From positions 1-55,077 of IMG/VR virus record IMGVR_UViG_3300027676_000003: a stretch of DNA of 55,077 bases; one strand, given 5' to 3'. Positions 15,021 through 19,333 of this stretch are shown here, piece by piece. Origin of the DNA: a virus. The number at the start of each line of letters is the position of its first letter. Position 1 is the first letter of the stretch. The notes beneath the pieces are model-generated. The model ran no database searches, had not been told where the DNA came from, and saw only the letters and a program-made list of their open reading frames with translations. The position numbers and the translations under genes were made by a program.

Positions 15021-15278
15021 ATGAACCCACCCCGCCGCCGCGCCATCGTTGACGGACTTCATGTGAAATTTGAGAGCCGTGACCCCAAGCTCGCTTCCGT
15101 CCGCTGGCATCCCCGGTTCAAGATGCGCTACCGCACGAAAGCGGACGCCATCGCGGCAAAGGCAGCGTGGGAGGAGCGGGGGAAGATATTGTGGCCAGCG
15201 GATCTGGTGAAAGCGCCGAAGGCAGAGAGGTCGTTGCGGCGGTATAGGGAAACGGGTCAGGGGGAGATGCGGCTATGA
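15021..15278 (+). CDS. Hypothetical basic protein
   Basis: An 85-residue basic protein from ATG 15021, preceded by AAGGAGG. It contains RWHPRFKMRYRTKADA and ends RRYRETGQGEMRL. Not recognised. It closes the RecET operon before a minus-strand gene. Confidence 0.62.
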   Translation: MNPPRRRAIVDGLHVKFESRDPKLASVRWHPRFKMRYRTKADAIAAKAAWEERGKILWPADLVKAPKAERSLRRYRETGQGEMRL

Positions 15279-15295
15279 GCGCAAAAACTCTAACC

Positions 15296-15883
15296 TCATC
15301 GACCCGGGCGAATGTAAACCGTCACGCTTGGAGACAGAAAAAGATTTGGAGAAATCGCTTTGATCTCGTCGAGACCACCATAGTGAGAGCCGATCTGAGA
15401 ACGATCATCAATTGCGAACGCCCATATATTTACGCTTTTCTTGGCGTCTCCGCTAATCGGAGCAGACGCCCAAGTGTCTTCACGGAATATAGTACGCGTT
15501 GGGTTCACGCTAAACGAAGGAAAGATTACATTGTAGTTGCCGTTCAACTCAGCAACAACCAATCCAACGGATTCGGACTCTGGGAGCGGCCGGGACGAAC
15601 GTACGACCACATCAGTCAGGAGCGAGCCGTGGTCGTATTCAATCATCGCATTCGAGCCAGGGCTAGTTATGTCGAGGACCACAGGCAGGGCAGGACATTC
15701 ATTGTTCGGCATCCAGCCGCTTCCTCTTGCGACCATCTGCCAGTCCACCTTCGGAGCGCTTCCAAACAGCGGGCTGGTCGAGAGCGCGGAATGTACTCCG
15801 TAGCCTGCGACAAAGCCCACCACAAGAACGCTTCCAAATATCACGACCGGGTGGTTCTCGATTCGTTCCTTCAGCGTGGGCAT
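15296..15883 (-). CDS. Membrane-anchored hypothetical protein on the opposite strand
   Basis: A 195-residue protein with an N-terminal signal anchor (VVIFGSVLVVGFVAGYGV), then a beta-rich extracytoplasmic domain. It runs against its neighbours, typical of a moron expressed independently. No family recognised. Confidence 0.62.
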   Translation of the reverse strand: MPTLKERIENHPVVIFGSVLVVGFVAGYGVHSALSTSPLFGSAPKVDWQMVARGSGWMPNNECPALPVVLDITSPGSNAMIEYDHGSLLTDVVVRSSRPLPESESVGLVVAELNGNYNVIFPSFSVNPTRTIFREDTWASAPISGDAKKSVNIWAFAIDDRSQIGSHYGGLDEIKAISPNLFLSPSVTVYIRPGR

Positions 15884-15996
15884 AGCAGTTTATGATACTC
15901 CGGCACCGCATTGAATGTCCTCCTCGGTGTTGCCTTCATTCGCCCGGCGCTCCGTCCCGATCCACCCTTCCGCCGCGAGCGCTAAAATGATCTGCC

Positions 15997-16450: not shown

Positions 16451-17629
16451 ATGACCGCCTATTACAACGAAATCGATCCATTCGCTGCCGCATGGCTCCG
16501 TCAACTCATAGCCGCCGAGCATATTGCTCCCGGCGATGTGGATGAAAGGAGCATTGAAGATGTCAAGCCAGATGAACTTCGACCTTACACCCAATGCCAC
16601 TTCTTCGCCGGCATCGGAATCTGGAGTTACGCGCTTCGCCTTGCGCGCTGGGACGATAGCCGTCCTGTGTGGACTGGTAGCTGCCCATGCCAGCCTTTCA
16701 GCGCGGCAGGCAAAGGTGACGGGTTCGATGACGAGCGGCACCTCTGGCCCGCATGGTTCCATCTCATCGAACACGCAAAACCGAGAGGCGTACCGATCTT
16801 TGGAGAACAGGTTGCGAGCCCAGACGGACTCGCTTGGCTCGACCTTGTTCAAGCTGACTTGGAAAACGCGTACCACACCCTCTGGCCGTTCGATCTCTGC
16901 GCTGCGGGCTTCGGCGCGCCCCATATCCGTCAGCGACTTTACTTCGTGGCAGAGCCCGAAGGTCAGCGATATCGCGCAAGAAACATACGAGGCCAAGATG
17001 GCGCGCAACGAACGTTTGAAGTCGGCGGGACAAACCAAGGGATGCGGATCTCCGAGCCTAGCGACCCAAGCAAGCTTGGCGAGTTGGCCGACACCGGATG
17101 CTTATCCGAGAGGGGGAGCGCAGGATGCGGAGAGCGCGGGAATGCGGCATTCAAGGGGAAAAGCGGATACTCTTACGGCCCAGGTAACGCATCTGGCATC
17201 ATGGCCGACTCCGATGGCCGGAACGCCAGCGCAGCACGGATACAATCAAGCGGGCAACACAGACAGCAGCAGGAAAACAGCGGCTCTATGCGGGGCCGAT
17301 CTTTCGGGATCGGGCATAACGGTGGACCAGAAGTGGAAGGGGCCGGCCCGGTTAACAGTCACTGGCGAGATTCTGATTGGCTCTTCTGCCGAGATGGAAA
17401 GTTCAGGCCAGTTAAATCCGGCACATTCCCGTTGGCTCATGGCACTCCCGCCTCAATGGGAGCACTCAGCCCCGCACTTCAGCGATTGGCAGAAGTGGCA
17501 GGACTTTCTAAAGACTCACTCAAAAGAGCCAAGTCCTACCGAGTCGGCAGCCTGCGCGGATTCGGGAACGGAATAGTTGCCGAACAAGCGGCAGCGTTCA
17601 TCACCGCCTATGACGGAGTGACAGCATGA
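16451..17629 (+). CDS. DNA (cytosine-5) methyltransferase, dual-coding
   Basis: A 392-residue phage C5-MTase. Motif I is [12 protein letters not shown], motif [14 protein letters not shown] (catalytic Cys in PCQ), motif VI is FGEQVAS in place of ENV, motif [12 protein letters not shown], and motif [16 protein letters not shown] at the C-terminus. The variable target-recognition region is low in complexity ([13 protein letters not shown]), and over most of the gene a second ORF lies in the +1 frame. AGGAG nine bases before ATG 16451. It would protect element DNA from restriction. Confidence 0.88.
16560..17576 (+). CDS. Overlapping gene inside the methyltransferase (+1 frame)
   Basis: A 338-residue frame entirely inside the C5-MTase gene. 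ATG 16560 is preceded by AAAGGAG at eight bases, an ideal ribosome binding site, while upstream TTG and ATG codons lack one. The product has recurring SWPTP motifs, [43 protein letters not shown] and [19 protein letters not shown] recall these as a recurrent phage protein pattern found overlapping such methyltransferases; that is memory, not a search. No enzymatic motif is evident and function is unknown. Confidence 0.65.
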
Positions 17630-18351
17630 ACACCAACGCACAGGACAAAGCGAATCCGCCGCCTACCAGGCCACTACATGACTTTGCTGCCACCGAAGAA
17701 ATTTGTACACGGAGAGCCCTCCGAGTCCTTGTCGCCTGCGAATTCTCCGGAATTGTGCGGGATGCGTTTCTTGAAAAAGGCCATGATGCGTGGTCATGCG
17801 ATCTCCTGCCGGCCGAGCACAACAGCAATCGCCATATTCAGTGCGATGTGCGCGACATCCTGAATGACGGCTGGGATTTCCTGATCGTCGCTCACCCGCC
17901 CTGTACCCGCCTATGCAATAGCGGCGTGCGATGGCTACACAAGGCGCCGCCCGGCAAAACCATCGACCAGATGTGGCAGGAACTCCGCGAAGGCGCCGAA
18001 CTGTTTTCCGACCTCTGGAATGCGCCTATCCCTCATATCTGTGTGGAAAATCCAGTCATGCATTCGCACGCCAAGAAGTTGATACGGAATTACGTCGAGT
18101 TTTCGCAGAGCGTGCAACCGTGGCAATTCGGGCATCCCGAGACCAAGCGCACCTGCTTCTGGCTCAAAAACCTTCCACCGCTCCGTCCGACGAATATCGT
18201 CGAGGGCCGCCAACCGCGCGTTCACCGAATGCCGCCGTCACCGGACAGGTGGCGTGAACGGTCGCGGTTTTTTCCGGGAATCGCGAAAGCGATGGCGGAC
18301 CAGTGGGTCGATCCTGCGAGTTGCACAGACACCCAGATGAGGCTGATATGA
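17626..18351 (+). CDS. C5-methyltransferase-like phage protein
   Basis: A 241-residue protein with a degenerate cytosine-methyltransferase plan: RVLVACEFSGIVRDAF (SAM-binding motif I), AHPPCTRLCNSG (PPC, motif IV-like) and HICVENPVMH (motif VI-like). The C-terminal IVEGRQPRVHRMPPSPDR.RERSRFF is characteristic of a phage family usually annotated as a DNA cytosine methyltransferase. ATG 17626 overlaps the previous TGA. Target unknown. Confidence 0.78.
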   Translation: MNTNAQDKANPPPTRPLHDFAATEEICTRRALRVLVACEFSGIVRDAFLEKGHDAWSCDLLPAEHNSNRHIQCDVRDILNDGWDFLIVAHPPCTRLCNSGVRWLHKAPPGKTIDQMWQELREGAELFSDLWNAPIPHICVENPVMHSHAKKLIRNYVEFSQSVQPWQFGHPETKRTCFWLKNLPPLRPTNIVEGRQPRVHRMPPSPDRWRERSRFFPGIAKAMADQWVDPASCTDTQMRLI

Positions 18352-18538
18352 CATCCTTCGCAGATCAGGCAAAGCCGCCCCCTCGCAAAATAATTTGCAA
18401 GTTGTTTGGCTTCACCCTTTGTCACCACTCATCCCCAGCTATCACGCTATCTCATTCTGTTTCATCTACTTACATCAGTTCGGCAGGAAACCGCTTAACC
18501 GCAGAACCCGTCACAGACCGCAGATGGAGCGCATTCAT

Positions 18539-19333
18539 ATGACGAAGGGTGATGCGCTTCCATATAGGCGGAAAGAGGTCATCGGATCGTGCGAACTTTA
18601 CCTTGCCAACTGTGTCGATTTGCTGCCCCATATCGGACCCGTTGATCACTGCATTACCGATCCGCCGTATGAAGAAGAGGCGCACACGAAAGGCCGCAGA
18701 CTTCTTGGCAAGCAACGCAACGGGAATCGCACGGTCGAGTACGGCGCACTCGATTTCGAGCCGATCGCCGAGAACTTGCGCAAGACGTTCGCAAGCCAGG
18801 TGAAAGTCATATGCTCCGGATGGGTGCTTGCGTTTTGCCAGGCCGAGGCAATTGGAGAGTGGCGAGCGGTACTCACCGAAGCAGGATGCAAGTGGAAGCG
18901 CGCGATGATCTGGACGAAGCCGGACGGGGCTCCTCAATTTACCGGGGACAGGCCGGGCATGGGCTATGAAAGCATTGCCGCGGCGTGGGCTGGCGAAGGC
19001 CGCTCTTCGTGGAATGGCGGCGGTCGACATGGTGTTTTCGTTCATGCGCAACGGGACGATAATCTCCCAAAACAACACATGACGCAAAAGCCCATCCGGC
19101 TCATGCTGGAGTTGGTGAACCTGTTTACCGACCCCGGCGAAACCGTCCTCGACCCGTTCATGGGCAGTGGCACGACACTAGTTGCCTGCTCCAAGCTGGG
19201 CCGCAGGGGTATCGGAGTCGAAATTTCCGAGCAGTATTTCGATATCGCCGTGAAACGTGTCAGGGATGGATACGCACAACCGAGCTTGTTTTCCCCGCCG
19301 GCATCGCCCATGATGCAGGAGACGCTTATTTAG
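18539..19333 (+). CDS. DNA adenine or N4-cytosine methyltransferase, beta class
   Basis: A 264-residue amino-methyltransferase. The catalytic motif DPPY is at 41-44 and the SAM motif LDPFMGSGTTLVAC lies toward the C-terminus, so the order is beta class. DPPY favours N6-adenine. GGAG nine bases before ATG 18539 supports this start; ATG 18524 is possible. No restriction partner is nearby, so it is probably a solitary anti-restriction or regulatory enzyme. Confidence 0.88.
   Translation: MTKGDALPYRRKEVIGSCELYLANCVDLLPHIGPVDHCITDPPYEEEAHTKGRRLLGKQRNGNRTVEYGALDFEPIAENLRKTFASQVKVICSGWVLAFCQAEAIGEWRAVLTEAGCKWKRAMIWTKPDGAPQFTGDRPGMGYESIAAAWAGEGRSSWNGGGRHGVFVHAQRDDNLPKQHMTQKPIRLMLELVNLFTDPGETVLDPFMGSGTTLVACSKLGRRGIGVEISEQYFDIAVKRVRDGYAQPSLFSPPASPMMQETLI

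Follow-up and report, generated by a model that had tools for sequence, protein, structure and literature searches.

Why does a viral C5-cytosine methyltransferase (MTase) gene carry a second long open reading frame (ORF) in its +1 frame, and what does the product of that frame do? The locus lies in a window, by which we mean the whole analysed stretch of 55,077 nucleotides (IMG/VR record IMGVR_UViG_3300027676_000003, positions 1 to 55,077). A preliminary description had noted that an MTase with PCQ and GFGNGIV motifs contains a nested ORF preceded by AAAGGAG at eight bases, had held that both frames are under selection and that the nested product is a recurrent phage protein, and had proposed a homology search with that product and a test of synonymous sites. 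The arrangement was confirmed from the sequence: the nested ORF runs from the ATG at 16560 to a stop codon at 17574-17576 and encodes 338 residues, with 8 bases between AAAGGAG and the ATG (Table 1).

Table 1. Features of the overlapping genes and substitution rates along the MTase codons. Rates are per opportunity x1000 between close relatives (changes silent in frame 0 alone / changes silent in +1 alone) and come from 14 window-group pairs in which some loci are repeated, so that the pairs are not all independent.
Feature	Position	Strand	Rates	Basis or remark
C5-cytosine MTase ORF, frame 0, proposed catalytic subunit	16451..17629	+		392 aa; PF00145, phrog_363
AAAGGAG Shine-Dalgarno of nested ORF	16545..16551	+		within MTase codons for DERS; sequence
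Nested ORF, frame +1, proposed recognition / motif IX subunit	16560..17576	+		PHROG matches, openness, constraint
Motif IV, catalytic PCQ (in SCPCQPF), frame 0	16685..16693	+		sequence; near-invariant in alignment A2
Nested N-terminal hairpin, over frame 0 motifs VI-VIII	16836..16913	+		best-modelled nested part; both frames constrained
Nested module 1 (SWQSP...)	16944..17081	+		module split
Frame 0 linker, motifs VIII to X; read-through of nested modules	17003..17356	+		pLDDT <50; substitution rates
Nested module 2 (SWPTPDA...)	17082..17198	+		module split
Nested module 3, of a cassette type shared with many other phages	17199..17345	+		module split and module clusters
Motif IX, 17 residues, nested frame	17409..17459	+		in-frame motif IX HMM
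Motif X, GFGNGIV, near C terminus, frame 0	17558..17578	+		sequence; GN invariant in alignment A2
MTase codons	1-36		39.7/0	MTase frame only constrained
MTase codons	37-100		32.3/6.0	
MTase codons	101-178		22.7/14.8	both frames constrained (motifs VI-VIII)
MTase codons	179-300		5.7/66.6	nested frame only constrained (motifs VIII to X)
MTase codons	301-345		12.1/20.3	both frames constrained
MTase codons	346-375		40.3/0	last 30 nested-ORF codons free

The frame 0 product matches PF00145 (E 3e-9) and phrog_363 (E 1e-76), an M.HhaI profile match to it spans motifs IV-VIII, and its structure model, with a confident catalytic domain, retrieved C5-MTases from the PDB (E 2e-7). Motifs I-VIII, among them the catalytic motifs I, IV (PCQ), VI and VIII, lie in this one frame together with motif X; motif IX is absent from the polypeptide and is present in frame +1 only. 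Residues 185-302 are modelled as disordered (pLDDT <50), and amino-acid changes in frame 0 are nearly free along the linker. Among relatives, the MTase of EBPR siphovirus 2 (L097:1001-3496) is apparently split by an intein exactly at PC/Q (SCP-CFPAGALVLT...VVHN-CQPFS), inside which its nested frame begins, and loci from Cupriavidus gilardii (L393) and Consotaella salsifontis (L360) combine an intact nested ORF with a damaged MTase frame (SCPRQ for SCPCQ; early stop after motif VIII). In the window itself, two further MTase-like genes follow directly downstream (17626-18351 and 18395-19333; phrog_757 and an N6/N4 MTase, PF01555), giving a cluster of three MTases, and ORFs of 206 aa (15275-15895, +) and 195 aa (15296-15883, -) overlap almost fully on opposite strands.

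The +1 frame is open over a length that synonymous codon choice does not reproduce. When the synonymous codons of the window gene were permuted, none of 300 permutations reached the real +1 ORF length (354 open codons; the permuted mean was 158), and in 87 genes (the window gene and its homologues) the longest +1 open stretch averaged 324 codons against 162 expected, compared with 61 against 73 for the +2 frame. All 80 IMG/VR homologue loci that had been selected by the MTase protein only kept +1, and not +2, open over almost the whole gene. Synonymous sites were compared over 71 non-redundant genes as the probability that the codon is identical where the amino acid is, and this probability reached 0.53, 0.71, 0.60, 0.79 and 0.57 in the bins of the overlap (expected 0.31-0.38), the peaks being codons 101-180 (0.71 vs 0.37) and codons 301-345 (0.79 vs 0.36); the corresponding values were 0.43 vs 0.39 at codons 1-36 and 0.48 vs 0.40 after the overlap. 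Excess synonymous constraint is largely limited to the overlap, and the claim that both frames are under selection is borne out by the very test that had been proposed.

Codon-position rates switch frame along the gene (Table 1), and a distant Paenibacillus-type (Firmicute) group, represented by 12 pairs without a common locus, repeated this crossover; there, constraint confined to the nested frame lay at codons 176-200. Dual coding with a region-by-region pattern of selection is observed at this locus. The preliminary description had also expected the overlap to tie the evolution of the two proteins together, which holds at codons 101-178 and 301-345 and fails at codons 179-300, where the nested frame alone is constrained. 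Its assignment of the target-recognition part to the MTase frame calls for revision: because codons 179-300 are constrained only in the nested frame and frame 0 is modelled as disordered there, the target-recognition domain (TRD) most likely resides in the nested protein.

Selection also appears to reach the nested start. The codon AGG is used at MTase Arg33, over the nested Shine-Dalgarno sequence, in 37% of homologues, as against 9% at other Arg codons and 4% at Arg17. This preference suggests selection for internal initiation of the nested ORF. On the other side, by a simple rule a strong Shine-Dalgarno sequence precedes the nested ORF in only 27 of 71 loci.

The search with the nested product found homologues of its own, as expected of a recurrent phage protein: relatives occur in 202 phage records (tblastn), and the product matches phrog_1008 (E 5e-26) and phrog_31772 (E 3e-37), both labelled "DNA methyltransferase." Neither refuting outcome named in the preliminary description, a lack of nested homologues or of excess synonymous constraint, occurred. 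Pfam and NCBIfam gave it no name and yielded chance matches only, so that membership in a known family of either database was ruled out. Exact peptide patterns taken from the window protein alone confirmed no relatives, but an alignment of the nested family did recover relatives in genome contigs. The family consensus begins with a conserved N-terminal part (GSTLYKLTWK..TPSGRSI.ALRAS), continues with W-P-T-P modules, which vary in number, and ends in a conserved stretch of 37 residues. The structure model has a pLDDT of 59 overall and 82-91 in blocks 91-120, with a helix and hairpin at residues 73-119; confidence was too low for comparison by fold, and neither sequence nor fold produced a significant match in the PDB.

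What the C-terminal end of this protein is became apparent from MTases in which the homologous segment is not nested. In mycobacteriophage ShiLan and relatives, a segment of the form "LLPTP...D...NPRLAPAFSEWMMGWPAGWVT" stands in frame with the MTase, immediately before motif X, and this in-frame TRD + IX + X segment can be aligned with motif IX in its canonical form (RKLTPKECWRLQGFP-DW) and with motif X of streptococcal phage MTases; in the in-frame form of Gordonia phage CheeseTouch, residues 1-328 are covered by PF00145. Nested profiles match the in-frame MTase segment (E 1e-11 for the Paenibacillus type, 8e-9 for the window type) and each other (E 2e-23); neither type matches the MTase that its own locus encodes in frame 0. 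Judged by this homology, the 17-residue motif of the nested frame is C5-MTase motif IX, an identity that the preliminary description missed. A motif IX HMM built from the streptococcal MTases gave no signal from the nested motif on its own, and the link to canonical motif IX therefore runs via the actinophage in-frame forms.

The location of motif IX is consistent across the family. Searched against all six frames of the 55-kb window, the in-frame motif IX HMM had the nested segment (17403-17459) as its top match, which is weak by itself (8.8 bits, E 0.13); a six-frame search of homologous loci likewise put the top match in +1 within the final third of the MTase gene, for the window type in 62 of 64 loci and for the Paenibacillus type in 58 of 58. 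Among 165 non-redundant genes, motif IX was found in frame 0 in 21, in +1 in 142 (including 58/58 window relatives and 58/58 Paenibacillus-group genes), in both frames in none, and in neither in 2. Other arrangements exist as well. When the contiguous ShiLan MTase is mapped to loci L152 and L153, residues 30-175 (30-156 in L153) match in frame 0, 335-355 in +1, and 358-378/380 in frame 0 again, the motif IX and motif X stretches overlapping in the DNA. In mycobacteriophage relatives L114 and L115, one ORF has motifs I-VIII and a second, overlapping it in +1, has the modules together with motifs IX and X. One and the same enzyme thus occurs in nature unsplit, with only IX split off, and with IX and X split off together. 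The nested C-terminal half, being homologous to in-frame MTase segments, is unlike a de novo overprinted gene without relatives; the N-terminal hairpin may have arisen de novo.

Between motifs VIII and IX sit tandem variable units, on which selection acts in the +1 frame. In 154 nested proteins from phages and prophages we delimited 424 modules of the form W-x-T-P... (median 38 residues, mostly 1-5 per protein), and 34 recurring families account for 264 of them. Several families occupy different positions in backbones of low similarity, and modules have been shuffled between phages; close relatives also differ by whole modules (L034, L054, L069, L072). The same family was never seen twice in one protein, against 7.1 occurrences expected, a value as low being reached in 1 of 2000 shuffles. 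Modules behave as would be expected of tandem target-recognition cassettes, and by analogy they probably recognise DNA.

We consider it highly probable that the two frames encode a two-subunit C5-MTase, frame 0 the catalytic subunit and the internally initiated nested frame a subunit that carries exchangeable target-recognition cassettes together with motif IX. The frame 0 protein would supply AdoMet binding, the PCQ loop, motifs VI-VIII and motif X, with a disordered linker in place of the usual TRD and motif IX. Initiation at AAAGGAG-8-ATG would yield the second subunit, consisting in order of a hairpin written over catalytic codons, a row of W-x-T-P modules, and motif IX; since this motif is nested and missing from the MTase frame, the nested protein most likely makes up the remaining half of the enzyme. 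Both proteins may then assemble into one active MTase, by analogy with M.EcoHK31I. Weighing against this reading are the poor structure model of the nested protein and its lack of a significant PDB match, the silence of the streptococcal motif IX HMM on the nested motif, the missing Pfam and NCBIfam names, and the limited share of loci with a strong Shine-Dalgarno sequence. If the modules are indeed exchangeable specificity cassettes, each phage would have its own set of methylated sites, probably serving escape from host restriction.

Other explanations of the long +1 frame were weighed against this two-subunit reading. G+C-rich genes often have long alternative frames, and the ORF might be a by-product of G+C-rich codon use combined with MTase conservation. 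We give this explanation almost no credence, since it is contradicted by the codon permutation, by synonymous constraint that is limited to the overlap and by rates that switch frame, and since low-GC Firmicute phages show the same pattern; a chance product of G+C bias was ruled out on the permutation and codon-position rates. It is also very improbable that ribosomes shift from frame 0 to +1 and back to produce one polypeptide, with no separate nested protein. Frameshifting would restore the ordinary MTase order VIII-TRD-IX-X; however, it requires two shifts, the +1 frame shows conservation as early as codons 101-178, before any point at which a shift could be of use, and the nested ORF has a selected Shine-Dalgarno sequence and start of its own.

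A real nested gene with a product independent of the MTase, such as a regulator or an anti-restriction protein, is unlikely, although somewhat less so than frameshifting. It would account for a nested protein without structural match to an MTase domain and for an N-terminal hairpin whose conservation extends to MTases with motif IX in frame 0, which points to a role of its own. Against it, motif IX and the modules are homologous to part of in-frame C5-MTases, nested and frame 0 motif IX are mutually exclusive, and all 80 genome loci picked by the nested protein retain a recognisable overlying MTase frame, a few of them damaged; nested homologues without an MTase frame were not found among these 80 loci. 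The hairpin is also a difficulty for the two-subunit reading. In streptococcal phages the MTase has its motif IX in frame 0, yet a constrained +1 ORF with the nested hairpin (phrog_16143) is present, so the hairpin must have a role beyond delivering motif IX, perhaps contact with the catalytic domain. In these streptococcal loci (L267-L345 and L092), where all motifs including IX are in frame 0, the stop-free +1 ORF covers codons ~51-195 with excess synonymous constraint, which makes it a second, different kind of nested product.

The arrangement was found in phages of Proteobacteria, Firmicutes and Actinobacteria (among them Paenibacillus, Lactobacillus, Microbacterium and Mycobacterium phages). 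The chances seem about even that it represents a broad phage class in which catalytic and specificity halves lie in overlapping frames and 38-residue cassettes, necessarily open in both frames, are swapped. A single recombination event would then alter specificity in the nested subunit, while the catalytic one would change only in the length of its tolerant linker, and the nested subunit might act in trans with MTases from other phages. Of the phage and prophage genes that are annotated as "DNA cytosine methyltransferase," thousands may each encode only half an enzyme, in which case testing such an ORF by itself for expression or specificity would fail or give misleading results. The loci also form a large collection of long overlaps on the same strand, verified by selection, in which labour is divided between the frames by region. 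They yield a ready list of recognition cassettes with which phage methylation specificity could be decoded, and their split and unsplit forms make up a natural series in which the movement of a protein segment from one reading frame to another can be studied.

A few existing records list the nested products but leave them unexplained, and a search of the open-access literature turned up no paper that describes these phage genes as dual-coding. The families phrog_1008, phrog_31772 and phrog_16143 are the nested products themselves under the label "DNA methyltransferase," which is silent on nesting and role. Escherichia phage K1G has the same arrangement, with ORF30 ("Mte8-like") within ORF31 and no function or mechanism in the record; in Paenibacillus phage Lily both frames are annotated, gp63 as "g62 internal gene," again without a role.

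In the two-polypeptide C5-MTase M.EcoHK31I, the gene of the small subunit lies within that of the large one, in another frame. In the multispecific C5-MTases that Bacillus phages encode (SPbeta, phi3T, SPR, H2), recognition units stand in tandem between motif VIII and motif IX; these enzymes were reportedly treated by Trautner 1996 and Behrens 1987, which PMC12707154 and PMC4081073 list among their references. The Bacillus-phage enzymes resemble the window locus in having tandem units at the same place in a phage orphan MTase, but they are one polypeptide in one frame, whereas the units described here are in a second, overlapping frame. In M.AquI (CYCGRG), a two-subunit C5-MTase, the natural split falls in the variable region (PMC3404938), and its I-VIII / IX-X division is paralleled, with overlapping frames, by the mycobacteriophage relatives L114 and L115; M.AquI keeps motif X together with IX, whereas at the window locus motif X stays in frame 0. 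The closest precedent is M.EcoHK31I (YGGCCR), whose large subunit has motifs I-VIII and X while motif IX sits by itself on the small one (PMC3404938), the same motif split as is seen here. That enzyme, however, belongs to a restriction-modification system and has its TRD placed in the large subunit, whereas the window type belongs to phages and prophages, has several modules, and has its selected recognition region in the nested frame. Nested-only selection on the recognition region, exchangeable cassettes and wide occurrence distinguish the phage arrangement from the M.EcoHK31I precedent.
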